Source of the DNA: Bacteroidota bacterium
GTDB taxonomy: Bacteria; Bacteroidota; Bacteroidia; JABDFU01
Assembly: GCA_016183775.1 (NCBI GenBank)
Contig: JACPDY010000048.1
Span: forward strand, 1-64,000
Direction: 5' to 3'
Length of the DNA stretch: 64,000 nt
Part shown: positions 3,501 through 52,742 of the stretch, piece by piece
Position numbering within the stretch: the first letter of the stretch is position 1
Layout: the number at the start of each line of letters is the position of its first letter
Translations under genes and position numbers: made by a program
The notes under the pieces: model-generated
What the model was told of the DNA's origin: nothing
The model's input: the letters and a program-made list of their open reading frames with translations, nothing else
Databases searched by the model: none

Positions 3501-6500
3501 ACCTACAGCGCTAACTACAACTATTACTCCGCCGGTATTAAATAATTGCAATGGAGGTACTACCTCGGCAACAATTACTGCAACGGGTGGAATAACACCT
3601 TATACATATACCTGGTCCGACCCCGGAGCACAAACTACCGCAACAGCATCCGGATTGGCCACGGGTATTACTTATACAGCAACAGTTACAGACAACAACG
3701 GATGCATCAACACTTCATCGGTAACCGTAACAGGCAGTGGGACACCACCAACCGTGACTGCGGTGAGCAGCGGTGATCTTACCTGTATAATAACCAGTGT
3801 GACATTAACCGGCACCAGCGCCGGAAACACTATGGTTTGGAATGGAGGTTTGCTGACTAATGCCGCCGACCCTGCCATTGTTTCATCTGCCGGAACCTAT
3901 ACTGTTACAGCAACTGATGGGACCACGGGCTGTACCGCAACACAAACCGTTACCGTAACATCAAATACAACAGTTCCTGACATCAGCATTGCAACGCCGG
4001 CACAACTTACCTGTACCGTTACAAGCACAACCCTGACCGGCAGTTCAACCTCCCTGGGTACTACTTTCCAATGGACAGGAGGACCCGCAACAGCTACTTA
4101 TACCGTTTCTGTGGCGGCCATTTATACTTTAACTATTACTGATCCATCGAACGGATGTACAGCAACACAAACCGTTACTGTAACAACTGATACAATTATT
4201 CCTGATATCAGTATTGCAGCACCCGATCAACTTACCTGCATAAATACCAGTGTAACATTAACAGGCACTTCCGTTACTGCAGGAGTAAACTATCAATGGA
4301 CAGCAGGTCCGGCAACGGCAAGCAACACTGTTTCTGCTGCAGGCATTTATACTTTAACTGTTGTTGATCCGGCAAACGGGTGCACGGCAACACAAACGGC
4401 TACAGTAGCAGCTAATACTGTAGTTCCTGATGTAAGTATCACCACACCACCGGAACTTACCTGCACAGATACCATCGCAATTTTAACAGGTAATTCAATA
4501 ACTCCCGGAGTTACTTTCCAATGGACAAATGGACCCGCGAATGATAGCAACACTGTATCGATAACAGGTGTTTATACTTTAACAGTTACTGATACGACCA
4601 ACGGTTGTATAGCTACGCAAACCATTACGGTGACATCAAACACGACAGTTCCAGACATCAGCATTGCAACTCCGGCGCAACTCACCTGTACTGTTACCAG
4701 TGTAATTCTGACAGGCAGCTCAATGACCACGGGTGCTGCTTTCCAGTGGACAGGAGGACCTGCAACGACAGCTTATTCCGTTTCTGCGGCAGGTATTTAT
4801 ACATTAACAGTAACCGATACTACTAACGGCTGCACAGCTACCCAAACTGTAACAGTTGTATCAAGTCCGGGCGTTCCCGATATCAGTGTGACACCTTCGC
4901 AGATCACCTGCTTTAACCCCAGCGTAACTTTAACCGGTAGTTCAACAACATCCGGTGTAACTTTCCAATGGACAGGAGGACCTGCTACAGCTACTTATAC
5001 CGTTTCTGTGGCGGCCATTTACACTTTAACTGTTACTGATCCTTCTAACGGATGTACCGCCTCACAAACCGTTACCGTAACAGCTGACACTCTTCTACCC
5101 GACATAAGTGTTTCAACACCTGCTCAGCTGACCTGTATCGTTACGAGCGTAACATTAACAGGAAATTCAACTACTGCGGGTGCAACGTACCAGTGGACAA
5201 ACGGACCAACTACAGCAAGTTATTCTGTATCGGCAGCCGCTATTTATACGCTGACTGTTACCAATCCGGCTAACGGATGTATATCAACACAAACAGTTAC
5301 TGTCACTTCCAGTCCGGGCGTGCCGGATATCAGTATTGCGCCGCCATTACCGCTTACCTGCACCAATACAAGTGTGACTTTAAAAGGCAGCTCAACAGCT
5401 TCTGGTGTTACTTTTCAATGGACAGGAGGACCTGCATCAGATAGCAATGTGGTATCAACAGTCGGCATTTATACTATAACTGTTACTGATCCGGCCAACG
5501 GGTGTACAGCATCGCAAACTGTAACTGTAGTAAGCAATACCACTCCGCCGGTTGTTACTGCTACAGCAAGTGGTAATTTAACCTGTATTGTAACAAGTGT
5601 GGCATTGACCGGCACGAGTCCTGGCAATATTATGGTTTGGAATGGAGGAGCTTTAACCAACGCTGCTGACCCTGCTGCTGTTTCAGCTGCGGGAACTTAT
5701 ACTATTACGGCGACTGACACAACAAATGGCTGTACCGCAACACAAACAGTAACTATAACGGCAAACCCGGGTGTTCCCGATATCAGCATAGCATCTCCCC
5801 CACCTCTTACCTGCACCAATAGAAGTGTAATATTAACAGGCAGCTCAGCCACAACCGGCGCTACTTTCCAATGGACAGGCGGGCCATCAACGGATATCAA
5901 TACAGTCTCAGTGGCCGATATTTATACCTTAGTGATTACCGATCCGGCTAACGGATGTACGGCTCAACAGACCGTAACGGTAACGATCGACACCATACCG
6001 CCAACAGTAACTGCAACGAGCAGCGGCAGTCTTACGTGCCGTACAACAAGTGTTGTTTTGACAGGTACAGCAGCAGGAAGTTCAATAGTATGGAATGGCG
6101 GCGCATTAACTAATACGGCAGATCCCGCCACTGTTACAGCTCCGGGAACTTATACTGCTACGGCTACCGATCTGGCAAATGGCTGCACTTCAACACAAAC
6201 AATTACAGTGGTGCAGATTGACGGCATTACTCTATCCTCTGAAAGCACCAAAACAGTATGTGGCGGCGCGACGGGTACGATTACCGCACATGTGGCCGGG
6301 GGTACACCTTCCTTTACTTACGAATGGGATCATACAACAGGCAGACAAACGGATTCCGTAGCGGTGAATCTTATTGCCGGCACTTATACCGTAACCGCTA
6401 CAGATGCCAATGGTTGTACTGCAATCGCAACTGATACTGTAAAAAATGCGCCACCCCCTGTTATAACTATTGTGCCTGCACAGCAAACAATAATGGATGG

Positions 6501-6978
6501 TCACAGTATAGCTATAACTGTAACAGGAGCTTCAACATATACATGGCTTCCGGCTTCAGGATTGTCTTGTACCAATTGTTCAAACCCAACAGCGAGTCCA
6601 GCGACAACTACAACCTATACAGTTGTTGCTGCCGATGACAACGGGTGTACTGTAACTGCCCTGTTAACAATCACAGTAAAACAAGCTTGCATTGATGACG
6701 AATCGGCTGTATATGTTGCCAATATATTCTCTCCCAATAATGATGGAAAGAATGATATACTCTTTATTGAAGGCAACGGCCTGAGTCAGATCTATTGGGC
6801 GATATACGACCGATGGGGTAACCTGTTGTTTGAAGCCTTCGACCAGGTTCATGGCTGGGATGGAACATATAAAGGCACAGAAATGGAACGCGGCACTTAT
6901 GTATATTACCTGAGGGCAACTTGCATTAAAACAAATGCTGAAGTGAAATTAAAGGGTAATGTTACAGTTGTAAGGTAA
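523..6978 (+). CDS. Giant secreted Ig-like repeat protein with T9SS type B (CHU_C) C-terminal domain
   Basis: A 2151-residue probable surface adhesin. Residues 1-20 are a signal peptide ending AVFAQ. Three Cys-rich repeats of about 150 residues (about 21-476) resemble pre-peptidase C-terminal (PPC) domains, with DWxYYxC and GxCYYIVVD motifs. A jelly-roll-like region follows (about 480-690), then a PKD domain (about 756-840) and two SprB-type repeats (about 920-1075). Next come eleven Ig-like repeats (about 1076-1896), another SprB repeat and a last Ig-like module. The final 90 residues contain FSPNNDGKND, YDRWGNLLFE and WDGTYKG, the hallmarks of the gliding-motility-associated C-terminal domain (TIGR04131, CHU_C), a type B T9SS signal. 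Proteins with this domain are secreted by T9SS and held at the cell surface. It converges with the helical-protein gene at 7026, 47 bp away. Domain calls are by eye; the binding target is unknown. Confidence 0.9.
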   Translation: MKKSVLIILSVFGSSLAVFAQGGNTCAAAQAAPITIGTSYSAQTTCGKVNDYTGTGSTCLSTLYYGSEDWFYYFCAPTSGCITLSLSNLTSGVSGKPAYISFSVFDGCPGTGSCVNGSYQYLAANTTLASGPSIQVNATAGKCYYIVVDAYSYTSYAGCFNFTLKSSIVPPLTQTPGGNTCSDAQANPITIGNTYTNQTTCCGGNDYTGTSSTCMGGTGTYNSASDWYYYFCATQTGCVTFSMPNTSSGVSGIPVYASLSAYDGCPGSSSCLAGNYTYVGAGTTVAGPSINFMVTAGKCYYIVVDGYSIGGTYANCAKYSLTSTFQLPVSQTPGGATCTAAIANPLTIGSTYNNQTTCCTGNNYQGTNSCLSTTYLSANDWMYYVCATQSGYLQVNLSNITSSVAAYPSISVFNACPGTAGACVSTNYVYISAGVAGTQTLLINAVAGQCYFILVDGYGDPYANCVKYSISTSFSAIPKNPTCNNMDFETGNLTGWFGNTGTATMGAVGAPTPMYTLTAIGIVAGRQTIVGPAGTDPCGGFPVVGAGSRSLKLGNNSTGAQGEQVSQTFLVSAANASFTYRYAVVLEDPGHTSNQQPFFMALMTDQTGKKIPCSEFIVSAAASLPGFFNSTSCPSVRYKPWSTVNVDLTSYIGTYVTIQFTTGDCSASGHYGYAYVDAQCGTSILASNNDTICPGQCTPLQAPVGYASYQWQPGNLSTATINACPTTTTVYTLTLTGFNGCKTTNYDTIWVSPNPVADFTFTTPGCNKPISFTNTSTITSPSTITNYSWTFQGGTPGSSTTQNPTNITWSAPGTYSVTLTVSTAAGCTSSVTKQVVIPACTIAVSILGDSVCAGNCHSLNATASLGVPPYTYAWSPNIGNGPGPHQVCPTATTIYTVTLTDSQGTANTDVATVAIYPSVNVTVTANNITCNGKSDGSITANPSTGASPYTYDWSAPASSQTTQTITTLAPGDYTVTVTDKNGCSSTSSATITEPTALTTTITPPVLNNCNGGTTSATITATGGITPYTYTWSDPGAQTTATASGLATGITYTATVTDNNGCINTSSVTVTGSGTPPTVTAVSSGDLTCIITSVTLTGTSAGNTMVWNGGLLTNAADPAIVSSAGTYTVTATDGTTGCTATQTVTVTSNTTVPDISIATPAQLTCTVTSTTLTGSSTSLGTTFQWTGGPATATYTVSVAAIYTLTITDPSNGCTATQTVTVTTDTIIPDISIAAPDQLTCINTSVTLTGTSVTAGVNYQWTAGPATASNTVSAAGIYTLTVVDPANGCTATQTATVAANTVVPDVSITTPPELTCTDTIAILTGNSITPGVTFQWTNGPANDSNTVSITGVYTLTVTDTTNGCIATQTITVTSNTTVPDISIATPAQLTCTVTSVILTGSSMTTGAAFQWTGGPATTAYSVSAAGIYTLTVTDTTNGCTATQTVTVVSSPGVPDISVTPSQITCFNPSVTLTGSSTTSGVTFQWTGGPATATYTVSVAAIYTLTVTDPSNGCTASQTVTVTADTLLPDISVSTPAQLTCIVTSVTLTGNSTTAGATYQWTNGPTTASYSVSAAAIYTLTVTNPANGCISTQTVTVTSSPGVPDISIAPPLPLTCTNTSVTLKGSSTASGVTFQWTGGPASDSNVVSTVGIYTITVTDPANGCTASQTVTVVSNTTPPVVTATASGNLTCIVTSVALTGTSPGNIMVWNGGALTNAADPAAVSAAGTYTITATDTTNGCTATQTVTITANPGVPDISIASPPPLTCTNRSVILTGSSATTGATFQWTGGPSTDINTVSVADIYTLVITDPANGCTAQQTVTVTIDTIPPTVTATSSGSLTCRTTSVVLTGTAAGSSIVWNGGALTNTADPATVTAPGTYTATATDLANGCTSTQTITVVQIDGITLSSESTKTVCGGATGTITAHVAGGTPSFTYEWDHTTGRQTDSVAVNLIAGTYTVTATDANGCTAIATDTVKNAPPPVITIVPAQQTIMDGHSIAITVTGASTYTWLPASGLSCTNCSNPTASPATTTTYTVVAADDNGCTVTALLTITVKQACIDDESAVYVANIFSPNNDGKNDILFIEGNGLSQIYWAIYDRWGNLLFEAFDQVHGWDGTYKGTEMERGTYVYYLRATCIKTNAEVKLKGNVTVVR
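583..1950 (+). repeat. Three coding repeats of about 460 bp (PPC-like modules)
   Basis: Three consecutive modules begin near 583, 1050 and 1519 with GGNTC or GGATC. Each shares a TTC Cys motif, a DWxYY motif and a GxCYxxxVDxY motif. They are diverged at DNA level and look like ancient internal duplication. Confidence 0.75.
3748..6213 (+). repeat. Eleven tandem Ig-like coding repeats of about 225 bp
   Basis: Each unit carries a conserved LTC, then LTG, a QWTxGPA or VWNGGALTN motif, an IYTLTVTDxxNGC or TYTxTATD motif and TATQTVTV. Units 2-8 and 10 are of the PDIS/QWTGGP type. Units 1, 9 and 11 are of the VTATSSG/VWNGGALTNAADPA type. The two subtypes suggest duplication of blocks as well as of single units. 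Confidence 0.85.
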
Positions 6979-7025: not shown

Positions 7026-8564
7026 CTATTTGCTCTTCTCTTTTTTCACTTTCTCTTTTATCACCTCTGCGAGCAACCGGTTTTGGATCTTACTTTTGAG
7101 CCATGAAATGAAATCGAGGTACTGAAGCTTGTTCTTTTCGGAAGGGATATTTCTAATTACCAATAATTTTTCCAAACACTCCGAGAATAACTGAACAGTA
7201 TCTTTTCGGGAAGCAGTTGCTGAATAGTTATTACGAAACAGCTCTAATATTATCGTTTCCATTTCCCCCAACATATTTTCCTTTTCAAAAGTTGAATATG
7301 CAGATACGGCAAGCTCTTCTGCATACTGTATCCTGCCTAATTCATATTGTATAATTATATTTAATAATGTTGTAGAGTTATAAATATCCGGACGAATTTC
7401 GTCCTTGCTCATTTGCAGGATCTTATTCACAAAAACCAAAGCGGATCTGTGAACCGCTGTAATAAAATACACAGTGGCAAAATTATAATATATGATCTGT
7501 AAACCATGTGAACTCAATTTGAAATCCGGCTGAACCATATCCTCCTGAAGCTTTTCAACCAATTGTAATGCAGTATCAAAATCAGCAGTATCAGTATAAT
7601 ACAACAGTTCATGCAAACTGAACTCGATTTTTAAAGCAATAGGAGCACCCGGGTTATCCTGCATAGTTACTTTAGCCAACCTTATTCCTTCCGCCATAGC
7701 GCTGTAATTTTTCAATAAACCGGAAATAACAATCTGCCTGGAAAGTAATGTCAGGTAATCAGAATACGAATTATAACTCAACGTGCAATTTTGGCTAACA
7801 ATATCAATTGCCCCCTGATTATGATCAAAAGCCTTTTGATAATTCATATTGTAATAGTTATAAGTGGTGTTAGCAAGGTGGTACCATAATTTTGAAGTAG
7901 TGGTGGTCGCCAGCTTATAGTCACGCAACAAAGGATTCCTAAATATTATTTTCAGTTCGGCATTGGCTTTCCCGACAGATGCTTCTCCATAAGCTATAGC
8001 CACCGCTTCGGTTTTATCACTCAGCCATTCATAACGAACTACATTTTCCATATCCTTTAAAGCTCTCAATTCCTTTGTCAGCAGTTTATTCAAATATGAA
8101 ACATGTTTTGGGGGCGAGTTTTTATACCTTGAATACACATGCTCCTTTTTATACAAATCAACAAGATCATTGTGTACTTCATACTTCAGCGCCAATTTTT
8201 GTGCTTTCACAAGCAATTTTAACCCCGCCTTATGAAGCTTCTTCCTGTACAAAAAATCCAGGTCCTTTTTCATATCGGCCAATTGCGCCTGCACACTTCC
8301 CTTACTATGATAAAGCCGCATGGACTTCAATATGAGGTTAAAAAGATAGTGTTTGTTGAAACGAAAATTTTTGGTGAATGATTCTTGTTTAAATCTCGTC
8401 AGGAATTGCTTTTCATTGTATTCCTTTTGTTTATCCATTGCATCAAACAACTTAACAAAAGAACTCTCTTTTGCTTTCATACTCATTGAGGCAAAAACTT
8501 TAAAATAGCGCTTTTCTGTCTGATTTAAAGACTTAATAAGGGCAAAAAGGTCGATATTTTGCAT
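7026..8564 (-). CDS. Helical TPR-like protein, paralogue 1 of a four-member family in this window
   Basis: A 512-residue protein with no signal peptide or membrane segment, so probably cytoplasmic. It appears almost wholly alpha-helical, with TPR-like helix pairs. The N-terminus (LFALIKSLNQTEKRYFKVF, then KLFDAMDKQKEYNE and LILKSMRLYHS) and the C-terminus (DFISWLKSKIQNR followed by a Lys-rich tail) are shared with the proteins at 18118 and 59463, and more weakly with that at 51060. I do not recognise a named family. It is divergent from the giant SBBP/SprB gene at 8741 and convergent with the adhesin at 523. The repeated pairing with secreted repeat proteins suggests a role in their expression or secretion. 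That role is inference only. Confidence 0.75.
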   Translation of the reverse strand: MQNIDLFALIKSLNQTEKRYFKVFASMSMKAKESSFVKLFDAMDKQKEYNEKQFLTRFKQESFTKNFRFNKHYLFNLILKSMRLYHSKGSVQAQLADMKKDLDFLYRKKLHKAGLKLLVKAQKLALKYEVHNDLVDLYKKEHVYSRYKNSPPKHVSYLNKLLTKELRALKDMENVVRYEWLSDKTEAVAIAYGEASVGKANAELKIIFRNPLLRDYKLATTTTSKLWYHLANTTYNYYNMNYQKAFDHNQGAIDIVSQNCTLSYNSYSDYLTLLSRQIVISGLLKNYSAMAEGIRLAKVTMQDNPGAPIALKIEFSLHELLYYTDTADFDTALQLVEKLQEDMVQPDFKLSSHGLQIIYYNFATVYFITAVHRSALVFVNKILQMSKDEIRPDIYNSTTLLNIIIQYELGRIQYAEELAVSAYSTFEKENMLGEMETIILELFRNNYSATASRKDTVQLFSECLEKLLVIRNIPSEKNKLQYLDFISWLKSKIQNRLLAEVIKEKVKKEKSK

Positions 8565-8740
8565 ATAAATTAAAACAATAAATAAGTATAAATTATATTA
8601 TTTATTTGATTATCAATATTTTATAAAATATTTATTTTATAATTATATTATATGAAATCAAATTTATTACATTTTTCTTATTGATTTAGCGTTTTTATTG
8701 AATTAATTTTAGATGTATGGTTGATGAATTACAAAGACTA
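8565..8740. promoter_or_regulatory. Very AT-rich divergent intergenic region with a perfect palindrome
   Basis: This region separates the helical-protein gene (minus) from the SBBP/SprB gene (plus) and must hold both promoters. It is extremely AT-rich. At 8615-8632 it contains the perfect 18-bp palindrome AATATTTTATAAAATATT. The analogous region at 52506-52742 also has a perfect AT palindrome. No clear TAnnTTTG box was found. Regulatory meaning is inferred from position. Confidence 0.4.
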
Positions 8741-11700
8741 ATGAAAAAAAAATCGCTTATTTACACTATGTTGCTATTCATTTCAACATCATTGTTTGTG
8801 AATGATCCTTTATCAGCAAAAACCGACAGCGAGGAAAATGATTCCGATTTAACAAAACGCAAAGAAGAAATTATCCAAAACATAATGAATATGCCCGTTT
8901 CGTTCCGACCAAATCACGGACAGTGGGAGAACAAGATCTTGTTCCAGGCAGCATCCGAAAATGGCAATATTTATTTCATGAACAATTGTCTCAGCTTTGC
9001 ACACAGAAGAGATATTATTTCAGATACGACTAAAACCAATCAAAATATTTCAGGTAAGGATTATGAAATTTTGGTCTGGAACATTCACCTCGATGGCACA
9101 AACCCCAACACCCACATTCTTCCTTCGGGTAAAAAGGAAAGTCATGCTAATTATTTTATAAATAACAAACAGATTTCAAATGTTCCTGATTATTCCGAAA
9201 TTATTTACAAAGATGTATATGACAAAATTGACTTAAAGTTTTACAACACTTCAAAAGATCTTGAATATGATTATATCCTGAAACCAGGTGCGGATGTTAA
9301 TAAAATCAGAAGAACTGTTGATGGCATAGAAAAAATTACTATCAACAACACCGGCGATATTGAATTCACAAATAAATGGGGCATTATACAGGAAAGAAAA
9401 CCGTATGCTTATCAGATCATTAACGGAAAAGAAACAGAAGTCCCTGTTCAATTTTTGCTTATCAATGACAAAACCTACGGATTTAAAATTACAGGTAAAT
9501 ATGACAAATCTAAAGAACTCATTATTGATCCTGTAATCCTTCAATGGTCAACATTTGTAGGAGGAATAGCAGGTGCAGGTTCGGGAAATATTAATGATAT
9601 AAGCGTAGGAGGTAATTTTGCGAACCCTGCCATTTTTGGCACGGGCTATTATAATGCCTCATACCCTGTTACTCCCGGTGTTTATGACAATACATTTAAC
9701 GGAGGGGAAGACGTATATGTATTCAGGTTAGACGGAACGGGTACCAATATGTTATGGGCCACCTACGTTGGCGGGGCCGGTAATGACCGTGGACAAGGCA
9801 TATTGGCCAGAACAATGCCGGATGTAGTATATGTTACGGGGTATACGGCCTCTGCCGCATTCCCAACTACAGCAGGAGTATTAGGCCCTGCCTATAACGG
9901 AGGAGCAGCGGACGCATTTTGCTTTCAACTGGATGGTACTTTAGGAGCAGTAATGCTCTGGTCAACTTTCCTTGGTGGCACTGGTGATGATTATGGCACA
10001 GATGTAAGGGTTGACGGAGGCGGGGTACCTTATTATACAGGCTATACCAAATCAACTGACTTTCCAACCACTGCCGGAGCTTTTGATGTAACACCCAACG
10101 GCGGATTTGACGCATACTTCACTAAACTAAATCCGGCAGGAACTATGGTAACATATTCAAGTTACATCGGAGGCAGTGGAGATGACTATGGCAATGGCAT
10201 TACATTAAATACATTTGGAACCGACCGAATATTTATAGTTGGTTCTACAAACTCCCCTAATTTTCCGACTACTGTAGGCGCTTTTGATGCTGTTTACAAC
10301 TTAGGAGACGACGCTTTTGTATTTGCTTTCGATGCACCAGGTGGTGTTCCGAATGCGATACCATTATATTCAACCTACCTGGGCGGACCCGGAAATGAGT
10401 CAGCAACAAATTGTTATCTCAATTTTGCAAATCAGGTTGCTGTTACAGGATATACAAATTCTGTAGGCTTCCCCACTACACCCGGAGCTTATGATATTAC
10501 CCAAAACGGAGGCTATGATGTTTTTGTTACCGTAATGAACCTTGCGGGCAACGCCCCTGTATATTCTACATTTGTAGGCGGAGGTGCTGACGATTACGGA
10601 GATGATATTGTTTATGGTTTTGGCGGCATGGGAATTCCCCTGTTTGTTGCGGGCACAACAAGTTCTGCAGATTTTCCCACAACTTGTCAGGCTTACGATA
10701 AAACATACAATGGCGGCTTATCCGACAATTTCCTATTGAAAATAAATTGCACAAACGGAGCCGCTGCCCAACTATTGTACTCCTCCTTTTTTGGCGGAAC
10801 AAATAAAGATTATAACGCATGCCTATATTCTGATTACTCATTATCGCACATGGGTTGCGAAGGCGTATTGATGGGCTACAATTCACATTCATTTGACTTT
10901 CCAACCACAGCTGGTGTTTTTCAATCAACAAAATTAAACGAGGCTATTGCTGGATTAAATCCTCAACCGGGGGTGCTTATGCTTCGCAGCTCTGCTCCAA
11001 CAGAAGGATTTTCTTATTCAAGTACTAATTGCAGCCTTACAGTAAATTTTGCGGCCCCACCCTGCACACAGTGGACATTTGACGGGCCATACACAAATTG
11101 GTCATGGTCGTTTGGGGATGCAACCAACTCAAATCTGGAAAACCCCACACATACATATGCAGCACCCGGCACATATACAATTTGGAACTCCAATTTTCCA
11201 AGTTGCGGAGGCGGTAGTCCGCAAACAATTACTGTAGGCGTTCCGCCAACATTAGTTCCATCAAGTACCAATTTAAAGTGCTTTGGAGGGAATAACGGAT
11301 CTGTATCAGTAACGCCTTCAGATGGTAAGCCAGGTTATATCTATAATTGGAATAATGGCGCAACCGGACAAACCAATACCGGACTAACACAGGGTACATA
11401 TACAGTAACTGTAACAGACAATAACGGGTGCACAAAAACCGCCACAACGAGTGTTACCCAACCCGCGGCAATCACGGCAAGCATCTCTGTTGTAACAATT
11501 AACTGCTTTGGAGGAACTACTACCGCAACTGCAACCGGTGGTGGAGGAACACCAGCATACACCTATTTGTGGAATGTCGCCGGCCAAACTAATGCAACTG
11601 CAACAGGACTTACACAAGGAACATATACGGTAACAGTTACAGATAACCAGGGATGTACGGCTACTTCAACTACAAATATAACGCAACCCACGGCAGCCAC

Positions 11701-13039
11701 TGCCGGCATTTCTCCCGGAACGATCAACTGCTTTGGTGGAACAACTACAGCTACTGCATCAGGCGGAGGTGGAACACCCGCATACACCTATCTGTGGAAC
11801 GCGACCGGGCAAACTACCATTAATGCAACCGGACTTACACAGGGCACTTACACAGTAACTATTACAGACAACAAAGGGTGTACTGCTACATCTACCACAA
11901 GTATCACACAACCGACTGCTACATCTATAAGTATAATTCAGGGAACTATCAATTGCTTTGGAGGAACGGCTACAGCCACAGCCACAGGCGGAGGCGGCAC
12001 CCCCGCTTATACTTATCTATGGAACTCCACTGCACAAACTACAGCTACTGCAACCGGACTTATCCAAGGCAATTACACAGTAACTATTACTGACAACAAA
12101 GGTTGCACTGCTACATCATCAGCAAGTATTACACAACCGCCGGTTCTTTCTGCAAACGTTAATGTTAGTGATGCGTCCTGCGGTTCTTCAAATGGCAGCG
12201 CGGTTGTTAACGCAAACGGCGGCACAGGGGTTTTAACTTACAGCTGGAGTTCAGGTGCTACTTCCGTAACAGCTTCCGGGTTATCATCCGGAAATTACAA
12301 TGTTACTGTTACTGATGCAAAAGGTTGTACGATTATTACAAATGCAACAGTAAATAACACCAGTGGAGGAACTGCTACAATTTCAATAGTTTCAAATGTG
12401 AATTGCAAAGGTGGTAATAACGGAAGTGTTACCGCAACTGCCGTAGGTGGAATTCCAACTTTCACTTATTCCTGGAGCAATGGAGCTTCTGGAGCCACAA
12501 TTTCAGGTCTCACGGCTGGAAGTTACACAGTTACGGTAAAGGACGGATCCGGATGTCAAAGTATAAGCACTGTGAGTATAACAGAACCGGCTTCTTCAAC
12601 AGTAGCTATTACAACAGGAACCATCAATTGCTCCGGAGGAACAACAAGCGCTACTGCAACAGCCGGCGGCGGCGCGCCTGCGTATACATACACCTGGAGT
12701 GCTGGCGGGCAAACTACAGCCATTGCCACAGGGCTATTACAAGGCAACTATACTGTAACTGTTACTGATAGTAAAGGGTGCACAACAACTACTACAACCT
12801 CAATTACTTCACCACAGCCCATCGTTGGTCAATTTACAAAGGGCACTGCCACCTGTGCAGGATGCGGTTGCAAAGAGTGGGTACTGGTGAATGCTACAGG
12901 CGGCAGCAGCCCTTATACATACTTATGGCAAGATGGATATACGAACAGATATAAAAATCAACTTTGTCCGGGTACATTTATAATAAATATTGTTGACAAA
13001 AATGGCTGCAGTACAAAAGTTAATCTTAATGTACCCTGA
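8741..13039 (+). CDS. Giant secreted SBBP beta-propeller / SprB-repeat protein with CxxCxCKEW C-terminal domain
   Basis: The ATG at 8741 is preferred over 8717 because it directly starts a signal peptide (MKKKSLIYTMLLF...). About 1432 residues. An N-terminal domain of the type found ahead of SBBP proteins (about 60-270; contains NHGQWENKILF and ends LIIDPVI) resembles DUF7948. Seven SBBP-like blades follow (about 270-750; YSTYLGGPGNES type), consistent with one seven-bladed propeller. Next are a PKD-like domain (about 763-830) and seven SprB-type repeats (about 837-1357). The final 72 residues contain GQFTKGT, CAGCGCKEW, SPYTYLW, LCPGT and DKNGC and end at NLNVP. No T9SS type A or B signal, membrane anchor or LPxTG motif is seen. 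It is probably exported and surface-located, possibly through this terminal domain. Confidence 0.85.
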   Translation: MKKKSLIYTMLLFISTSLFVNDPLSAKTDSEENDSDLTKRKEEIIQNIMNMPVSFRPNHGQWENKILFQAASENGNIYFMNNCLSFAHRRDIISDTTKTNQNISGKDYEILVWNIHLDGTNPNTHILPSGKKESHANYFINNKQISNVPDYSEIIYKDVYDKIDLKFYNTSKDLEYDYILKPGADVNKIRRTVDGIEKITINNTGDIEFTNKWGIIQERKPYAYQIINGKETEVPVQFLLINDKTYGFKITGKYDKSKELIIDPVILQWSTFVGGIAGAGSGNINDISVGGNFANPAIFGTGYYNASYPVTPGVYDNTFNGGEDVYVFRLDGTGTNMLWATYVGGAGNDRGQGILARTMPDVVYVTGYTASAAFPTTAGVLGPAYNGGAADAFCFQLDGTLGAVMLWSTFLGGTGDDYGTDVRVDGGGVPYYTGYTKSTDFPTTAGAFDVTPNGGFDAYFTKLNPAGTMVTYSSYIGGSGDDYGNGITLNTFGTDRIFIVGSTNSPNFPTTVGAFDAVYNLGDDAFVFAFDAPGGVPNAIPLYSTYLGGPGNESATNCYLNFANQVAVTGYTNSVGFPTTPGAYDITQNGGYDVFVTVMNLAGNAPVYSTFVGGGADDYGDDIVYGFGGMGIPLFVAGTTSSADFPTTCQAYDKTYNGGLSDNFLLKINCTNGAAAQLLYSSFFGGTNKDYNACLYSDYSLSHMGCEGVLMGYNSHSFDFPTTAGVFQSTKLNEAIAGLNPQPGVLMLRSSAPTEGFSYSSTNCSLTVNFAAPPCTQWTFDGPYTNWSWSFGDATNSNLENPTHTYAAPGTYTIWNSNFPSCGGGSPQTITVGVPPTLVPSSTNLKCFGGNNGSVSVTPSDGKPGYIYNWNNGATGQTNTGLTQGTYTVTVTDNNGCTKTATTSVTQPAAITASISVVTINCFGGTTTATATGGGGTPAYTYLWNVAGQTNATATGLTQGTYTVTVTDNQGCTATSTTNITQPTAATAGISPGTINCFGGTTTATASGGGGTPAYTYLWNATGQTTINATGLTQGTYTVTITDNKGCTATSTTSITQPTATSISIIQGTINCFGGTATATATGGGGTPAYTYLWNSTAQTTATATGLIQGNYTVTITDNKGCTATSSASITQPPVLSANVNVSDASCGSSNGSAVVNANGGTGVLTYSWSSGATSVTASGLSSGNYNVTVTDAKGCTIITNATVNNTSGGTATISIVSNVNCKGGNNGSVTATAVGGIPTFTYSWSNGASGATISGLTAGSYTVTVKDGSGCQSISTVSITEPASSTVAITTGTINCSGGTTSATATAGGGAPAYTYTWSAGGQTTAIATGLLQGNYTVTVTDSKGCTTTTTTSITSPQPIVGQFTKGTATCAGCGCKEWVLVNATGGSSPYTYLWQDGYTNRYKNQLCPGTFIINIVDKNGCSTKVNLNVP
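11264..12810 (+). repeat. Seven tandem SprB-type coding repeats, about 225 bp each
   Basis: Units share CFGG, a TPAYTYLW-like motif, GLTQGTYTVTVTD and GCTATS. Units 2-4 (about 11470-12140) are the most alike at DNA level and look recently duplicated. Unit 7 resembles unit 4 and a repeat near 14939 in the next gene, so these stretches are likely substrates for recombination. Confidence 0.85.
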
Positions 13040-13214: not shown

Positions 13215-15359
13215 ATGAAAAGAAATACTTTTCTTCTTACTTTTTTACCGTTTCTCATTCTTTGGGGCATTTGCACCAAAAATATGTATGCACAAGGCGG
13301 TAGACTTTGGGGAACCTATTATGGTGGATCTGAGTTTGATGATATCGGATTAAGCTGGAGCGCCGGCAAGTGTATTGCAGGTGATGCTGCCGGAAATGTT
13401 TACATAGCCGCAGAAACATCCAGTCCCAATAATATTGCGGCCGGTGGATTTTTGAATGTGTATACAGGCGGAGGTTGGTATGAAGGATTTGTTACAAAGT
13501 TTGATGCTGCAGGTAACCGTTTATGGGGCACTTATTATGGTGCGGGCTTTGCAAAGAACACGCAGGCAACTTCTGTTGCAGTTGATAATATTGGAAATGT
13601 TTATGCGGCGGGTTTTACAAATAACAACGCGAATATTTCATTAGGCGGATTTCAAAATGCTTTCGCAGGTGGTGGCACTGATGCCTTCTTAGTTAAGTTT
13701 GATGCGAATGGGAATCGCCTATGGGCCACTTATTACGGCGGACCGGGTGCCGACTGGGGATTGGGTGTAAGTACTGACCCCTTTGGAAATGTTTATTTAG
13801 CCGGCACTACAGCAAGTCTATCGGGAATTGCTTCAGGAGGATTTCTGAATGTCATTCCTCCGGGATGGGCACTAAACGCTTTTTTGGTAAAATTTGATCC
13901 GGCCGGGAACAGGCTATGGGCAACATATTATGGAAATTCAGCTTCTGAATATGGATGGGCAGTAGTTACTGATGCTTTTGGAAATGTATATTTAGGCGGC
14001 TATACGGCTTCCTTAGCTGGAATTGCATCGGGAGGATTTCAAAATGTACACGGAGGCAATCTTTTCGATGCGTTCCTGGTGAAATTTGATGCAGCAGGAA
14101 ACAGGCTCTGGGCAACATATTATGGAGGCAATGCTGATGACCTGGGCAGAGATCTGGCGGTAGATCCTTTGGGAAATATTTACTTAAGTGGCTTAACACA
14201 AAGCAATGTCGGAATCGCATCAGGAGGTTTTCAAAACGCGATTGGAAATATTGCTACAAATGATGCATTCCTCGTAAAATTTGATCCGGCCGGAAATCGG
14301 TTATGGGCTACATACTACGGTGGGACAGGAATAGAAGACGGATGGGGTGTAACCTGTAATAATGCGGGCGATGTTTTTCTTTGCGGAGAAACAAGCAGTC
14401 TTGCAGGAATTGCATCGGGCGGCTTTCAAAATGTTTATGGCGGAGGCGCTACTGATGCATTTATGGTAAGATTTGACGCTTCCGGAAATCGTCTATGTGC
14501 CACTTACTATGGCGGTACCGGAGACGACCGGGGATTTAGTGTCCTTTCCAAAGCTGCTGGCGCCGCTTATTTATTCGGAAATACGAATGGGAATGATGGC
14601 ATATCATCTGGCGGTTTTCAAAATATGTATGGAGGCGGATTCATGGATGTTTTTTTGACCAAACTCTCTGCCTGTAATATTATTTTAACTGCTACAATCG
14701 TTTCTACTGATGTATCATGCAAAGGAACGTGTAATGGGTTGGCCACAGTATCTTCCTCAGGAGGCACTGCTCCATTTACCTATTTATGGAATGATGGACA
14801 AACTGCACAAACTCCAACAGGTCTTTGCGCGGGAACATACACCGTAACTGTTTCCGATGATGGAAATAATACCGGTACGCAAACTGTAACTATTACTCAA
14901 CCGGACAATGCACTAACATCTGGCCTTACTTCAGGTTTGATCAACTGCTACGGAGGAACTACAACCGCTATGGCTACCGCGGGCGGAGGCACACCTGTAT
15001 ATACTTATAACTGGAGCGCCGGGGTTACGGGTTCAGGGTTCCAGGTTTCAGGCTTGTTGGCAGGCAATTATACTGTAACTATAACTGATAGCAAGGGCTG
15101 CATCTCAACTTCTACCGCCTCAATAACTTCACCTCCTGCAATAGCCGGACAATTTACCAAAGGCACCGCCGGATGTACAGGTTGCGGTTGCAAAGAATGG
15201 ATAATGGTAACTGCCACCGGTGGTACAAGTCCATATTCATACTTATGGACGGGTGGATATATCGAAAGGTATAAGAATCATCTTTGTCCCGGAACGTATA
15301 CTATAAATGTCAAAGATAAAAACGGATGTAGTATAAATGTTAACCTGAGCGCACCGTAA
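13215..15359 (+). CDS. Secreted seven-bladed SBBP-like propeller protein with SprB repeats and CxxCxCKEW domain
   Basis: A 714-residue protein with a signal peptide ending NMYAQ. Unlike its neighbours it has no DUF7948-like domain and enters the propeller at once. There are seven units, each with NRLWATYYGG, GNVYLxG, GIASGGFQN and DAFLVKFD motifs (about residues 30-483). Two SprB-type repeats follow (about 495-640). The last 72 residues are the same terminal domain as at 8741: GQFTKGT, CTGCGCKEW, SPYSYLW, LCPGTYTIN, DKNGC and a terminal SAP. It lies 175 bp downstream of the 8741 gene in the same direction. It is probably a surface protein; the partner or ligand is unknown. Confidence 0.82.
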   Translation: MKRNTFLLTFLPFLILWGICTKNMYAQGGRLWGTYYGGSEFDDIGLSWSAGKCIAGDAAGNVYIAAETSSPNNIAAGGFLNVYTGGGWYEGFVTKFDAAGNRLWGTYYGAGFAKNTQATSVAVDNIGNVYAAGFTNNNANISLGGFQNAFAGGGTDAFLVKFDANGNRLWATYYGGPGADWGLGVSTDPFGNVYLAGTTASLSGIASGGFLNVIPPGWALNAFLVKFDPAGNRLWATYYGNSASEYGWAVVTDAFGNVYLGGYTASLAGIASGGFQNVHGGNLFDAFLVKFDAAGNRLWATYYGGNADDLGRDLAVDPLGNIYLSGLTQSNVGIASGGFQNAIGNIATNDAFLVKFDPAGNRLWATYYGGTGIEDGWGVTCNNAGDVFLCGETSSLAGIASGGFQNVYGGGATDAFMVRFDASGNRLCATYYGGTGDDRGFSVLSKAAGAAYLFGNTNGNDGISSGGFQNMYGGGFMDVFLTKLSACNIILTATIVSTDVSCKGTCNGLATVSSSGGTAPFTYLWNDGQTAQTPTGLCAGTYTVTVSDDGNNTGTQTVTITQPDNALTSGLTSGLINCYGGTTTAMATAGGGTPVYTYNWSAGVTGSGFQVSGLLAGNYTVTITDSKGCISTSTASITSPPAIAGQFTKGTAGCTGCGCKEWIMVTATGGTSPYSYLWTGGYIERYKNHLCPGTYTINVKDKNGCSINVNLSAP
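13302..14664 (+). repeat. Seven tandem beta-propeller coding repeats, about 195-200 bp each
   Basis: The recurring DNA encodes GNRLWATYYGG at about 13302, 13510, 13705, 13900, 14095, 14285 and 14485. The units are more uniform than the blades of 8741 or 55615, which suggests recent expansion or homogenisation. Confidence 0.75.
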
Positions 15360-15449: not shown

Positions 15450-16187
15450 ATGCACCAATACAATACTATAAAGCAGCTGTTGCCCCTTGCTGCGGTAGTA
15501 GTATTCATTGGCCACAGCCACGCCCAGTTCTCGACAAAAGCCCGAACTGACCTCAGCATTGGATCGGGAAACCTGCAAACCCGGAACCCACTTCGCGGCA
15601 ATGGCCTGTGCTTCACCCCCAACAAAGGCCAGCTAACAGATACGGACGGAAAGCTGCGCCCCGATGTTTTATACAAAGGCGATGGCGCAGGAGCCGATAT
15701 TTACTTACGCAAAACCGGCATTAGTTATGTCTACACCAATATGACCGAAGTAATGCACGAAGTTGATGAACAAATAGAAGATTTAATTAAAGCGGGAACA
15801 ATAACCGAAGCCTATGAGAAAGAAAAGAAAGATGAATTACTGGAAATGGAAAGCATTAAACTTCATCGGGTTGATATGGATTTTGCAGGTTGTAATAGCA
15901 ATATATCCGCTGTAAATGAAGACGAAGTCGATGGCTACCAAAATTTTTATTATGCCCACTGCCCGCAAGGTATATCCAAGGTAAAACAATATAACAAAAT
16001 AACCTGCAAAAATATTTACAACAACATTGATGTAATTTATTATGCCTGCCCTGAGCAAAGCCGAAGGGGCAACAAAGACCATGGCCTAAAATACGACCTT
16101 ATCGTACAACCCCATGCCGACCCAATCAAATACAACTTAAGTGGACGGGAGCTGAAAGTATATATCTCAATGGTGAAGGAAACTTAG
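15450..16187 (+). pseudogene. N-terminal fragment: signal peptide and DUF7948-like domain
   Basis: 245 codons. A signal peptide ends near HSHAQ, and the DUF7948-like domain runs up to HADPIKYNLS. Beyond about 16141 the frame is nonsense and stops at 16187. It contains an extra ACPEQSRRG segment absent from the 55615 paralogue, encoded by a palindromic insertion at 16047-16071. Confidence 0.7.
16047..16071 (+). repeat. In-frame palindromic element encoding PEQSRR
   Basis: The ends TGCCC (16047-16051) and GGGCA (16067-16071) are complementary. The element adds ACPEQSRRG to a domain where the paralogue at 55615 has none. It resembles the dispersed TGCCCTGAGC...GAAGGGCA palindromes seen in Bacteroidota genomes (recalled, not searched). 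Confidence 0.55.
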
Positions 16188-16762
16188 TGATCAAAACCAG
16201 CATAAATGAGTTTTACGAATCCATTCCCAAAGTATATCAAAACATAAACGGGAAAATTGTAAACGTTAAAGCAGAATACGTATTAGAACCTGAAGTCTAT
16301 AGTATACCGCTTCAAACCTCAAAACTAAAGACAAAAAACCTGAGACAAAAGACTTATAATGTAACTTTCAAATTTTCTACTTTCAACACAAATTATCGTC
16401 TAATCATCGATCCTAATACCTGGATAACTTATTATGGGGGAAATAATACTGAAGCAGGTAACTGCATAACAAATGACGCGTTGGGAAATGTTATTTTTAC
16501 AGGTTATTCCAGATCAGGAAATTTTCCGAAATCTGTCGGAGCATTTCAAACAATTTTGAGTGATTCTTCTTTTGATGCATTTATTGTTAAATTAACTCCT
16601 GCTTGTGTGCGTCTTTGGGCGACCTTTTATGGTGGCACTGGTATTGAATCCGGAAGAGGTGTAATTACTGATGGATCCGATAATGTAATTGTTACAGGGT
16701 CTACCAGTTCGACAAATTTTCCCATAGGCTTATCAGGAACAAATTTAATTCATCAGGAATAA
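16187..16762 (+). pseudogene. Middle fragment: end of the DUF7948-like domain and first propeller blades
   Basis: The homologous part starts upstream of the ATG at 16187, at about 16142. It carries NEFYESIPKVYQNINGK, identical in 17 residues to the 55615 protein, then LIIDPN and two blades (WITYYGG, WATFYGG). The segment QTSKLKTKNLRQKTYN, encoded by about 16317-16361, is low-complexity and sits where the paralogue has a different repeat-derived segment. The frame becomes nonsense near 16735. The next stretch, 16741-16962, is read in a third frame. Confidence 0.65.
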
Positions 16763-16958
16763 GACAATGGGGAACCTATTTAGGTGGAGGTATTAATGGA
16801 CCCGCAACCGGTGGCAGCAATGACTATAATACCGGACTTGCATGTGATATAAATAGTAATATTATTGTCGGAGGAGATACTTACAGCATAAATTTCCCAA
16901 GCACAGTCTGTGCTTATCAACCTGGTTTCGCCGGTACAGAGGATCATTCATTAGCGCT

Positions 16959-18131
16959 TTTCGACCTACTGGTACACTTATATGTTCAGGCTATATTGGT
17001 ATTGGCAATTCCACAAGCCCACATAACGAAACAACACCTGTTGGTGGATCCATAGCTGTATATGGTGGCTATGTATATTTGGTTGGTTTTTCAACATGTA
17101 ATTTCCCCGTAACTCCCAATGCTTATCAGCAAACATGTGGTGGAGCTGAAGATGCAACAGTAGCCAAATTGTGTATCAATGCTTGCGGCCTGCCCAATAA
17201 TGTAGCCAGTTTTGTAGCCAACCCAACAACAGGTTGTTCTAATACTCCTGTTTCCTTTAGTTTAACCAATACAACCTGTGATACCACCAACACTACTTAT
17301 CTGTGGACATTTAATGGAAGTTTTCAGGGAACCTCCAACATACATAACCCCAAAGACATTACCTGGACTAATACCGGGACTTATGATGTATCAGTAAAAA
17401 TTATGAGTCCCTGTGATACTATTTCAGTAACACAAGCTAATTACATTACAATTACTCCCTGTGGAATTACCGCTACTGCAGCCGGTTCAAGTATATGCCC
17501 GGGAGTTTGTGCAACTGCGATATCCTATGGTAGCGGTGGCACAAATCCTTACACCTATTCCTGGAGTACCGGTGATACGTCACAAAACATAAACCCTTGC
17601 CCAGTCTCAACCACCACTTACACGGTAACAATAAAAGATACCGGGGGAAATACAGCCACTTCAACAGTTGTAGTAACGGTTAATCCTGCGGTTACCGTAA
17701 CAACTTCAGCAACAAATATAAATTGTAACGGAGGTACGGGATCAGCGTCCGCCTTAGGCGGAAGTGGTACTTCCCCGTATGCATATAACTGGAGCAACGG
17801 ACAAACCGCGCAAACAGCTACAGGCCTTACTACAGGAAATTATACTGTAACAGCAACTGATAGCAAAGGCTGCACTGCTACTTCTACATCTGCAATAATT
17901 TCGCCTCCCACTCTTATGGGACAATTTACCAAAGGCACAGCCAGCTGTAGCAGTTGCGGTTGTAAAGAATGGATAATTGTAACTGCCACAGGCGGTACAA
18001 GCCCATATAACTATTCCTGGTCAGATGGCAATACAAATAGGTACAAGAATCATCTTTGCCCGGGAACATACACTATAAACATCACAGACAAAAATGGCTG
18101 CAACGCGGGTGTGGTCCTCACTGCACCTTAA
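16959..18131 (+). pseudogene. C-terminal fragment: blade remnant, PKD, SprB repeats and CxxCxCKEW domain
   Basis: The continuous frame opens at about 16959; the first ATG is at 17079. It encodes a blade remnant, a PKD-like domain (about 17200-17460), two SprB-type repeats and the terminal domain (GQFTKGT, CSSCGCKEW, LCPGTYTIN, DKNGC, ending TAP). It overlaps the convergent gene at 18118 by 14 bp. Part of it (17625-17766) is nearly identical to DNA in the 19889 gene. Confidence 0.65.
17625..17766 (+). repeat. 142-bp segment about 94% identical to 22874-23015
   Basis: Direct comparison of the two blocks shows 9 differences in 142 bases with no gaps. Flanking sequence is much less alike. The block covers the end of one SprB-like repeat and the start of the next in two neighbouring genes, suggesting recent gene conversion or duplication. 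Confidence 0.8.
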
Positions 18132-19695
18132 CAGATAAGCGGCTTTTCTTTAAGGCCTTCCCTCGCACAATCTCAGCGAATGATCGCCTTTCTATCTTGC
18201 TACCCAACCAGGAAATGAAATCGAAATATTCCATTGCCCTTTTTTCTTCCGGATCCTGGAAAATGTGCTCAACTTCCTTTTTAAAACTCCGGAACAGCTC
18301 TACTCTTTCCTTTTGTGAGCTTATTTTTGAAATTTTTTTATCAAGAAATACAAATAAGACTTGTTCAGTTTTATGAAAACGCTTTACCTTTTTCAGGTAG
18401 CGTGAAACTGAACGGACCTCACTTCCGGAGAATTCATTACCGTCCAACTCATATTGAATCAGTATTTTTAAAATACGTGACCGGCAATTTATGTCAATGC
18501 TTAAATTATTATTGCTTTCCCCCTCTATCGCATTAAGCCATATCAACGCCTGCTTATACTTTCCAATTCCGAAATTCATATATGCAAGATTATAATACAA
18601 ACGGAAGATGTAATTTTTCTGAAAATTTTTTCCTTTAAGTTCAACTATCCATTGTTCAATAAACAACAGCCAATTTGTACTTTCATTAAATCTCCCGAAA
18701 CCGGTAAATACGCGGAGTATATTATTATAATGCATAATAAAATGTTCCTCATTATCCGGTATAATCTCTTCCGGAACCTCCCTTATACTATTGATATACC
18801 GCAAGGTTTTTTCAAAAGTTGCATGTTTGATCAATATGCTGATTATATTGTTAGTTGTAAAAAGATAGTTTCTTATATATTGCCGTAACCGGCCGGGGTC
18901 GCTTTTTATAAAGCTGGTAAGATCCGTAAAGGATTTTAGACTTTCTTTGATCTTTTCTTTTATTAAAAAATAAATACCGTTCAGATGATAATAGATTATA
19001 CGCGACCTGTCGGATAAAGCAGTTTCTCTTTTTTCAAGAAGAACATTATTACCTAATAGCTTATCGAATTTTTTGATGTCATTTTCGGATCTGGCAAATC
19101 CGACTTTTTCGCTTAAAATATAAGTTTCATAAGCTAATTTCCGGTATTGCTGGAAATTTGCCATTTCAGCAATTGCCCCGCTTTGCTTAAAGTAGACCCC
19201 CTCTAAATTTTCTTCCAGCCAATTTACATTTGCTATACCTTCCATATATCGCAACTGCATTTCAGAAGCTTCGATATAACCCGCATACAAATCATTATCC
19301 AATGCAAGTTTCTTCGCTTTGGTAATTATTTTATTGAATTGCTTCGATTGTTTTTTTAAGCATAAAAAATCTGCGTAATCCAGTAATTCCCTGACCTCAC
19401 TTTGAAAAGTCTTTTTTGAATGAAAAACCCGCATGCTTTTTAATATCATTTCATAGAGGTAGTTTTTTGCTACATGAAGTTGCCTGGAAAATTTTTCTTT
19501 TGAAAACCGTTTTAGCAACGCTTCTTCATTATATTCCATTTGCTCATCAATAGCATCAAACAGTTTCAGGTATTTATTTTCCTCCCCGATCACATGGCGT
19601 TGAGCAAAAACAGTAAAGTATCTCTTCTCCGGACCAGTCAATGACTTTACCAGGTTAAAAAGCTCAGGCGATTTATCTCTTTTTCTGCTTTTCAT
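18118..19695 (-). CDS. Helical TPR-like protein, paralogue 2
   Basis: 525 residues from the ATG at 19695. This start is preferred to 19716 because it places MKSRKRDKSPELFNLVKSL in line with the other family members. Shared motifs are LVKSLTGPEKRYFTVFAQ, KLFDAIDEQMEYNEEALL, MILKSMRVFHS and, near the end, FDFISWLGSKIERR. No export signal or membrane helix is visible; it is largely helical. It is divergent from the secreted SprB protein at 19889 and overlaps the decayed SBBP gene by 14 bp at the 3' end. The upstream region has a TTATTTTA/TAAAATAA inverted repeat (19704-19711, 19720-19727). Function unknown; likely linked to its divergent neighbour. Confidence 0.75.
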   Translation of the reverse strand: MKSRKRDKSPELFNLVKSLTGPEKRYFTVFAQRHVIGEENKYLKLFDAIDEQMEYNEEALLKRFSKEKFSRQLHVAKNYLYEMILKSMRVFHSKKTFQSEVRELLDYADFLCLKKQSKQFNKIITKAKKLALDNDLYAGYIEASEMQLRYMEGIANVNWLEENLEGVYFKQSGAIAEMANFQQYRKLAYETYILSEKVGFARSENDIKKFDKLLGNNVLLEKRETALSDRSRIIYYHLNGIYFLIKEKIKESLKSFTDLTSFIKSDPGRLRQYIRNYLFTTNNIISILIKHATFEKTLRYINSIREVPEEIIPDNEEHFIMHYNNILRVFTGFGRFNESTNWLLFIEQWIVELKGKNFQKNYIFRLYYNLAYMNFGIGKYKQALIWLNAIEGESNNNLSIDINCRSRILKILIQYELDGNEFSGSEVRSVSRYLKKVKRFHKTEQVLFVFLDKKISKISSQKERVELFRSFKKEVEHIFQDPEEKRAMEYFDFISWLGSKIERRSFAEIVRGKALKKSRLSVKVQ

Positions 19696-19888
19696 TAGAC
19701 GATTTATTTTATACAAAGTTAAAATAATACCCGATACTTAAAATCAGACTCCTACAAATAAGATATTTTTTGTTTGTATTTTGCTTTTTTTTGGCCCAAC
19801 TTGCATATAATAAAAATGAAAAAGAAGACGCTCTTATCATTATTTGCAATTAAATCACAGGATCAAAAAAAATGAAAAAATCACCTCA

Positions 19889-22800: not shown

Positions 22801-23386
22801 TATTTATTCATGGAACAATGGAGCAACTACGCAAAACATAAGTCCTTGTCCTGCATCCACCACAACCTATACTGTAACAATAAAAGATACCGGGGGAAAC
22901 ACAGCCACTTCAACAGCAGTAGTAACAGTTAATCCTGCGGTTACCGTAACAATTTCAGCAACAAATATAAATTGTAACGGAGGTACGGGATCAGCGTCCG
23001 CCCAAGGTGGAAGCGGCACCTCACCTTACGTGTATAACTGGAGCAATGGGCAAGCCACCCAAACAATCACAGGTCTTGCTGCGGGCAATTATACTGTAAC
23101 AGTTACTGATGCAAAAAGCTGTACTACCGCGACGAATGCTCTTATAATTTCACCACCATCATTGTTAGGACAATTTACCAAAGGTACTGCCAACTGCACA
23201 GGTTGTGGCTGTAAAGAATGGATAATGATAACTGCCTCAGGAGGCACAGACCCATACAGCTACTCCTGGCCCACCTCAGCCGGACATGATAAAAGGTACT
23301 TAAATCATCTTTGCCCCGGAACCTACACTATAAATATTAAAGACAAAAATGGTTGTGGCGTAACTGTCAACCTTACTGCTCCCTGA
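19889..23386 (+). CDS. Large secreted protein: DUF7948-like domain, NHL-like region, SprB repeats, CxxCxCKEW domain
   Basis: The ATG at 19889 is preferred to a TTG at 19844 because it begins the signal peptide (MKRLALIISIFFMGQ, cleavage near MQAQ). About 1165 residues. The N-terminal domain (about 35-285; NKGQF, YKGLYTGIDVEY, HPGADVSK, SIVIDPW) is the DUF7948-like type. The next region (about 290-620) has GNIYILGG and YKYDSNL motifs like an NHL or other propeller, not the YYGG type. Three or four SprB-like repeats, a PKD-like module and two more SprB-like units follow. The end is the shared terminal domain with CTGCGCKEW, LCPGTYTIN and DKNGC, ending TAP. It overlaps the convergent urocanate hydratase gene by 14 bp. 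Confidence 0.82.
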   Translation: MKRLALIISIFFMGQSMQAQLTGSNSENPSSDWTRNDIFRNNVFIENKGQFDKKDKRPASKILFGVFDNGMQIFFTSKGLTYRYDKAEIPEKMIEEIEKKRGHKNEANEEKVEKEIAKNMKTISYTVNFEWLGSNPNVKLVAENMVSQYYTYGDEKKSYKASAYKKLIYKGLYTGIDVEYIFHEKEGVKYSILVHPGADVSKVKMKYSGADKIKKDELGNIHLVIALGDIIDHAPITFYESDKTEIASSFSVINKTVGFNLKNYDDKSSIVIDPWTVGITMNTSNQILEVERDNAGNIYILGGPENSGIPMLLKKYNSAGSLLWTYTPVTVGFSGRYGDDLKIDKSGNVYILAGYGAQLFKVNSLGIPIWANAALGGGNRELYRLLFDCDNSNPFVTSGEDGGAPNQALYINPGTGNTSSTVQPIFNGAPNQDDLRDLVLAPNGNYYGITVGNNFSTPNSSKFGSLTAFSPSLNNSWSLNHGYPLLYWTHYGKFANQAAAIGQPGSVHLIAVSKNYIYTTSGSVLNKRNLANGTIIGSTIIIPGGVLATSANGNSGIVLDTCENIYVSSGAGVYKYDSNLNFIASATTPGAVYDICLGITGEVIACGDGFLSSLNLSACVAAPLNVSALATPSGNCNNGNVGTVTALPTGGNPSYNYYWIPGGQTTKTVTGLGAGTYSVIVADMNCNKDTAIVTVSSSGALITSITQTNLQCYGASNGSTAVTATNGTPSYTYLWSTGNTGAAITGLSAGTYIVTVTDANACSSVKQVSISQPSQMTVAITTLATTCNSATGNATVTVSGSSGPYTYLWATGSTSIYANRCGTFNAGCQGIISGTYTVTIRDSNGCTQTSTATVPSSTNPADPSFTQSPSGTICIGTTVNFINTGSTGTYSWTITPANVSGTTTDFSYTFLTAGTYNVRHTVTNGGCTNALTSPITIINCTGPIVTATGSSVCLGSCATVTSYGSGGANPYIYSWNNGATTQNISPCPASTTTYTVTIKDTGGNTATSTAVVTVNPAVTVTISATNINCNGGTGSASAQGGSGTSPYVYNWSNGQATQTITGLAAGNYTVTVTDAKSCTTATNALIISPPSLLGQFTKGTANCTGCGCKEWIMITASGGTDPYSYSWPTSAGHDKRYLNHLCPGTYTINIKDKNGCGVTVNLTAP
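22874..23015 (+). repeat. Second copy of the 142-bp block at 17625-17766
   Basis: Nine mismatches over 142 aligned bases with the copy in the decayed gene. The encoded sequence includes DTGGNTATST and NINCNGGTGSASA in both. Confidence 0.8.
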
Positions 23387-52582: not shown

Positions 52583-52742
52583 ATATTCACAAATATAAAT
52601 AAATGTAATTTATTTAACAAGTAAGTCCCCTCATATTTGTATCGTGAAACAAGTGTACAATTGGCTCACATTAAATAAGCAAAATGAAAAGCAAACAAAT
52701 ACTAAAAAACAAATGGAATTAATTAACTTAACAAATCGAAAA

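Follow-up and report, generated by a model that had tools for sequence, protein, structure and literature searches.

The cargo proteins of the T9SS are currently found with two profiles, which describe the C-terminal domains (CTDs) of types A and B, next to a minor type C. Published type A CTDs have seven strands (PMC10994853). Type B CTDs are needed for secretion and bind PorP/SprF proteins, which then anchor the cargo (PMC12618676, PMC9143113), and orphan type B substrates which are served in trans are also known (PMC12618676). The CTD of the ChiA type (type C) is a further CTD outside types A and B (PMC10202324). Here we describe a C-terminal tail domain shared by giant proteins encoded in a window of 64,000 nucleotides from a Bacteroidota bacterium (GCA_016183775.1, contig JACPDY010000048.1). 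On balance we favour, with a rough probability of 0.62, the reading that this tail represents a new class of T9SS sorting or anchoring domain derived from a SprB repeat. The reading is comparative and rests on no experiment, and its scope is set by the profile comparison, which covers types A and B and not the ChiA-type CTD.

According to a re-reading of the C-termini in frame, five genes of the window end in this one domain of 70-72 residues (Table 1), the alignment of the five copies having 39 invariant columns and a mean column identity of 81%. The first-pass annotation, which had been made from the sequence alone, had assigned a common tail to these five genes. This held, as did all of its motifs (GQFTKGT, CxxCxCKEW, GGxxPY, LCPGxY, DKNGC and the final Pro), GQFTKGT being the least strict. 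Its start of the first tail at position 12822 was slightly off, lying a few bases too far upstream and in the wrong frame, and as a copy count its five genes are a large undercount in view of the roughly 140 full copies encoded genome-wide.

Table 1. Tail-bearing giant genes, their tail domains and RusR-like neighbours in the window, and orphan PorP-like genes elsewhere (positions refer to the window unless a contig is given; G000, the window's genome; G399, a genome of the same genus)
Feature	Position	Strand	Remarks
BT2802 (RusR) family relative	7026-8564	-	divergent to giant at 8717; NF058569 E 1e-34
Giant with tail	8717-13039	+	signal-peptide-like N-terminus, DUF7948, PKD, SprB repeats, tail
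Tail of giant 8717-13039	12827-13036	+	70 aa; C-terminal alignment and profile
Giant with tail	13215-15359	+	SBBP beta-propeller repeats, SprB repeats, tail
Tail of giant 13215-15359	15147-15356	+	alignment and profile
Decayed giant with tail (pseudogene)	15450-18131	+	spread over several frames
Tail of decayed giant 15450-18131	17919-18128	+	inside intact ORF 17079-18131; alignment
BT2802 (RusR) relative	18118-19716	-	divergent to giant 19844, convergent with decayed giant; NF058569 E 8e-45
Giant with tail	19844-23386	+	DUF7948, SprB repeats, PKD, SprB, tail
Tail of giant 19844-23386	23168-23383	+	72 aa form; alignment and profile
Giant with tail	55615-59343	-	DUF7948, SBBP, PKD, SprB repeats, tail
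Tail of giant 55615-59343	55618-55827	-	alignment and profile
BT2802 (RusR) relative	59457-61028	+	divergent to giant 55615-59343; NF058569 E 6e-28
Orphan PorP-like gene (L234)	G000 C16:4662-5627		candidate tail carrier (possible)
Orphan PorP-like gene (L239)	G000 C93:100124-101047		candidate tail carrier (possible)
Orphan PorP-like gene (L252)	G399 C205:10161-11093		candidate tail carrier (possible)

The decayed giant comprises an N-terminal part (15450-16187) followed by several frames and then by the intact ORF which includes the tail; upstream of this ORF all three frames show stops and frame changes. At 16051-16067 the stretch CTGAGCAAAGCCGAAGG reads as ACPEQSRRG and resembles a short interspersed repeat that landed in the gene, and a VLSKVEG stretch of another giant (C79:35859) looks similar. 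Two tail giants run into their convergent neighbours 3' end to 3' end, with a shared stretch of 14 bases in each case (18118-18131 and 23373-23386).

Other genes of the window include that of a PKD giant of 2151 residues (523-6978), which adjoins the tail giants and has an ordinary type B CTD according to the profile match, so that the two kinds of signal coexist. Furthermore, the protein encoded at 52644-54353 has a type A CTD besides weak matches of the cohesin and dockerin type, and a Radical SAM/SPASM gene (54520-55536) terminates close to where the tail giant at 55615 has its 3' end. A PADLOC search revealed no link to defence; its weak Csn2 match of P0003 was taken as chance.

Using a profile made from the five window copies, we detected about 140 full-length tails on some 50 contigs of the window's genome (4.54 Mb, 97.7% complete). 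This count is a lower bound, as only the 150 best candidates were scored, 140 of which were full-length (at least 66 residues). The tail-bearing ORFs sum to about 0.43 Mb, corresponding to 9.4% of the genome. In 139 of the 140 tails the final residue is Pro with the stop directly after it, the remaining one running on for four residues, and no internal copy was present in the proteins checked. The strictly C-terminal position that had been proposed is therefore shown. Ten positions (C10, C13, C15, C47, C61, W18, W34, Y30, R41 and D57) show no substitution in any of the 140 copies.

The conservation of the tail is a matter of selection on the protein. Between 114 copies the median protein identity is 0.74, and the N-termini of the carriers share a median identity of 31% only. 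At four-fold degenerate sites of identical residues the median difference of these tails is 0.61, where base usage would predict 0.74; each of the three stop codons occurs, and the 60 bases 3' of the stop are unrelated among the tail genes (0.28 identical). Synonymous sites near saturation together with a conserved protein indicate that the tail has been kept by long-term selection rather than by fresh copying. The near-saturated synonymous sites and the unrelated downstream DNA also led us to reject recent gene conversion at the 3' ends, as well as a mobile cassette located there.

One could argue that the tail is conserved merely because its carriers descend from one amplified gene family and has no function of its own. 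In favour of this explanation, 104 of the 112 complete carriers possess a DUF7948-type N-terminal region, and these mostly lie in arrays. It is nevertheless very unlikely given the synonymous near-saturation, the divergence of the N-termini relative to the tail, the lack of recent conversion tracts in the DNA around the tail, its presence on unrelated N-terminal parts (8 of 112 complete carriers) and its repeated exchange with type B ends described below. A SprB repeat directly precedes the tail in 118 of 127 cases; in the other nine it is preceded by a PKD-like domain without any detected SprB repeat. The unrelated N-termini and the PKD-preceded copies suggest that the tail is a portable module and more than the last repeat of a series.

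In sequence and modelled strand order the tail is a modified SprB repeat, a derived relative of the ordinary ones. A partial SprB match was obtained in Pfam for all 35 tails tested and, where its score was read, fell short of the gathering cut-off (21.7 bits against 28 for PF13573 in one example), and searches of Pfam, NCBIfam and the PDB revealed no named domain beyond this sub-threshold match. The tail shares with the SprB repeat the core GGxxPYxYxW, the GxY and DxxGC motifs and the strand order; it differs in its strictly terminal position, its KEW/RYK signature and its five fixed Cys. Nine residues of the tail (K16, E17, W18, Y38, R41, Y42, K43, N54 and K58) are seldom or never found in SprB repeats. 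The tail profile separates both kinds completely, with 117.5-148.2 bits for the C-terminal tails versus at most 41.3 bits for the SprB repeats further inside the proteins checked.

An AlphaFold2 model of a repeat plus the tail (pLDDT 87.7) consists of two all-beta halves of equal strand order with six strands per domain. The tail alone gave a poor model (pLDDT 66), which was left out of the claims on the fold. Foldseek matched the combined model to Ig-like folds with the grappling-hook protein of Aureispira as top match, which was also the best PDB sequence match of the tail; in a viral structure library only SprB-like and Ig-like phage proteins matched, giving no new insight. The predicted SprB-like fold thus held in the model. 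The proposed inserted Cys cluster is less novel than had been thought, as ordinary SprB repeats of the tail carriers often have Cys at the matching positions, so that what the tail adds over them is a fifth invariant Cys, which makes the fixed number odd, together with the KEW/RYKN signature. A metal- or Cys-based cap had also been suggested; a metal or disulfide role has not been shown.

Among 396 genomes drawn across Bacteroidota the profile search found the tail in a single one, the window's own. The best matches in the 395 others had E values of about 1e-13 or weaker, and those that were read proved to be SprB repeats located at least 217 residues before the stop. Six genomes sampled from the window's order all belong to one genus, and three of them (3/6 species) encode the tail, with about 140 copies in the window's genome (G000), more than 50 in G399 and about 19 in G400; the named carriers are the MAGs JAEUTS01 and JADLGT01 ('Bacteroidia bacterium'). 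No tail was detected with the profile in G396, G397 and G398, which are incomplete MAGs. G397 lacks it despite dozens of DUF7948 matches. None of the outcomes listed beforehand as refuting a sorting signal (internal matches, a position upstream of T9SS signals, organisms without T9SS, a named domain) was seen.

The tail-less sister genomes G396 and G397 encode DUF7948-SBBP-SprB giants, also in tandem, which end in type B CTDs (FSPNGDGxND...DRWG...GNVTLLR); a type A ending on their DUF7948 giants occurred once or twice. In the window's genome 107 DUF7948 proteins were listed, 82 with the tail, 9 with a type B CTD, none with both and 16 with neither, several of the latter being short frames or located at contig ends. 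In a maximum-likelihood tree built from 141 rows of the DUF7948 region, tail-bearing and type B proteins are intermixed, requiring at least 18 changes between the two endings, 14 of them forced by well-supported branches. Thus, the tail protein C7:8991 of the window's genome groups with a type B protein of G396 (support 100/98), and its tail protein C31:15777 is placed beside nine type B/A proteins of G397 (96/94). Within the same genome the type B protein C5:42190 and the tail protein C135:7309 are 51% identical over 900 residues and differ only towards the C-terminus. Either the C-termini or the N-termini have moved, recombination of the N-termini being possible, and in either case the endings are interchangeable.

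The comparison with G396 and G397, the DUF7948 census and the tree therefore confirm that the tail stands in place of a type A or B signal. The further suggestion of the first-pass annotation, a new sorting or anchoring signal, is supported comparatively and chiefly by this repeated exchange with type B, export itself being inferred.

Alternatively, the tail may be a structural cap, that is a specialised last SprB repeat which stabilises the rod, possibly by an extra disulfide, with export depending on another feature. The clear SprB ancestry, the SprB repeat preceding most tails and the extra Cys would agree with this. However, the type B CTD is replaced by the tail without any other recognisable export feature being left, nine proteins have the tail behind a PKD-like domain, and the conserved KEW and RYKN positions are absent from SprB repeats. 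A mere cap therefore seems unlikely.

As regards export, a signal-peptide-like start was found in 82% of the 112 complete carriers versus 5% of the BT2802-like neighbours and 3% of internal stretches. The underlying test was a home-made hydrophobicity score with controls; a stricter first heuristic had given 49%. The T9SS genes tested were present in the window's genome, comprising one copy of SprA, a canonical PorV, PorV-like genes and 19 PorP-matching pieces, and, in addition to type B CTDs, no fewer than 150 type A CTDs are encoded there. The expectation that the carriers start with a signal peptide hence held for signal-peptide-like N-termini, and that the tail tracks with T9SS genes held for the genes tested (SprA, PorV and PorP families, type A/B cargo).

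No PorP or canonical PorV gene was detected within 11 kb of the tail genes on the contigs examined, the nearest PorP being 11.8 kb away. A carrier would consequently have to act in trans, as do those of orphan type B substrates. When the remaining ORFs of the arrays were clustered, no recurrent third family emerged as a cis carrier either, apart from other surface proteins. A PorV-like gene (C5:33198-33884) 3.9 kb from one tail gene was discarded, as it is a weak match to the PorV family and has no counterpart near other arrays. No PorP clade is common to the three tail-bearing genomes and at the same time missing from the three tail-less ones of the genus. A small orphan PorP clade is confined to G000 and G399, both tail-bearing (Table 1), and each of its genes adjoins a PD40/TPR or carboxypeptidase-regulatory-like (PorE-like) ORF. 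These genes may possibly encode the tail carriers, which we regard as a lead and not as a result.

The tail might instead be a surface handle independent of the T9SS on proteins exported by some unidentified route, the odd Cys forming an intermolecular disulfide or thioether, or CxxCxC...C binding a metal, by which the giants are tied into a coat. The five Cys, an odd number, fixed in every full-length copy and the share of the genome taken up by the tail ORFs, which would suit an abundant coat, are in line with this idea. Against it, most tail Cys are likely to be inherited disulfides, since matching Cys are common in ordinary SprB repeats, and the ORF clustering revealed no new partner gene family beside the tail genes. 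We thus regard a handle of this kind as improbable.

Many tail giants have a divergent neighbour related to the BT2802/RusR family (NF058569); RusR is the reported controller of the ribose locus BT2803-2809 (PMC12596196). The neighbours are full-length relatives and not members of this family, as they score 98-154 bits against a curated cut-off of 550. The three window genes are 27-29% identical to each other. About 90 RusR-like matching pieces were found genome-wide, which alternate with tail giants in arrays, often in divergent orientation. They appear to be a large regulator-like expansion in their own right, as far as can be inferred from the sequence alone. A divergent RusR-like gene lies beside 48 of the 112 complete tail giants at a median distance of 180 bp (about 2 expected by chance), and 43 further giants are preceded by a tail gene of the same orientation. 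In G396 a type B giant has such a RusR-like partner as well. We infer that the tail giants and RusR-like genes probably constitute many separately switched surface-protein units.

According to the T9SS reading, the giants would cross the inner membrane by Sec, and the folded tail would deliver them over the outer membrane via the SprA translocon. They would remain at the surface with the tail bound to a FadL-type carrier, PorP/SprF-like or other, which would serve all tail giants in trans. The carrier-binding face would be the invariant signature (KEW, RYKN, DKNG and the last strand with its final Pro). The small Ig-like fold would be held together by Cys pairs, and the odd fifth Cys may add a further bond. 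The T9SS export of the giants, the carrier and the role of the Cys are all inferred. Several points speak against this reading: there is no experiment and no nearby PorP, the tail-only model is poor, the combined model, although good, has six strands per domain instead of the seven of type A CTDs, the type A Lys and the type B motifs are missing, and three of the six genus genomes, all of them incomplete MAGs, are tail-less.

A bolder and tentative version would combine two clauses: that the tail is a repeat-born T9SS class with an odd Cys and its own trans carrier, swapped many times with type B within one genus, and that the roughly 140 giants form a coat under separate RusR-like switches. 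Its carrier could conceivably come from the orphan PorE-like/PorP pairs that occurred only in genomes with the tail.

About 140 likely surface proteins, encoded by nearly a tenth of the DNA of one genome, are missed by the type A and B profiles. A repeat-born signal swapped with type B would furthermore provide a natural experiment on the recognition by translocon and carrier, a problem not yet solved (PMC10994853, PMC12618676).

Among the known systems, the tail resembles the type B CTD (PF13585 CHU_C/TIGR04131), which likewise terminates giant surface proteins with SprB, PKD and SBBP parts and Sec-like signals, occurs on the same protein family in sister species and is swapped with the tail. 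It differs in giving no match to this profile, in its length (70 residues versus an 86-position model), in being SprB-derived and Cys-rich without type B motifs, and in its final Pro in place of a GNVTLLR-like strand; moreover, porP is often located next to type B genes, whereas none adjoins a tail gene. With the type A CTD (PF18962/TIGR04183) it shares the terminal position, many copies per genome, diverse cargo and, as far as the all-beta model suggests, a small beta-sandwich. It does not match that profile either, lacks the conserved Lys near the C-terminus, ends in Pro and has six strands per domain in the model versus the seven published (PMC10994853). Like the ChiA-type CTD it stands outside types A and B. 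Since the tail resembles a T9SS CTD in position and exchange, it presumably does the same work, and by this analogy it is likely to be a T9SS domain outside the type A and B families.
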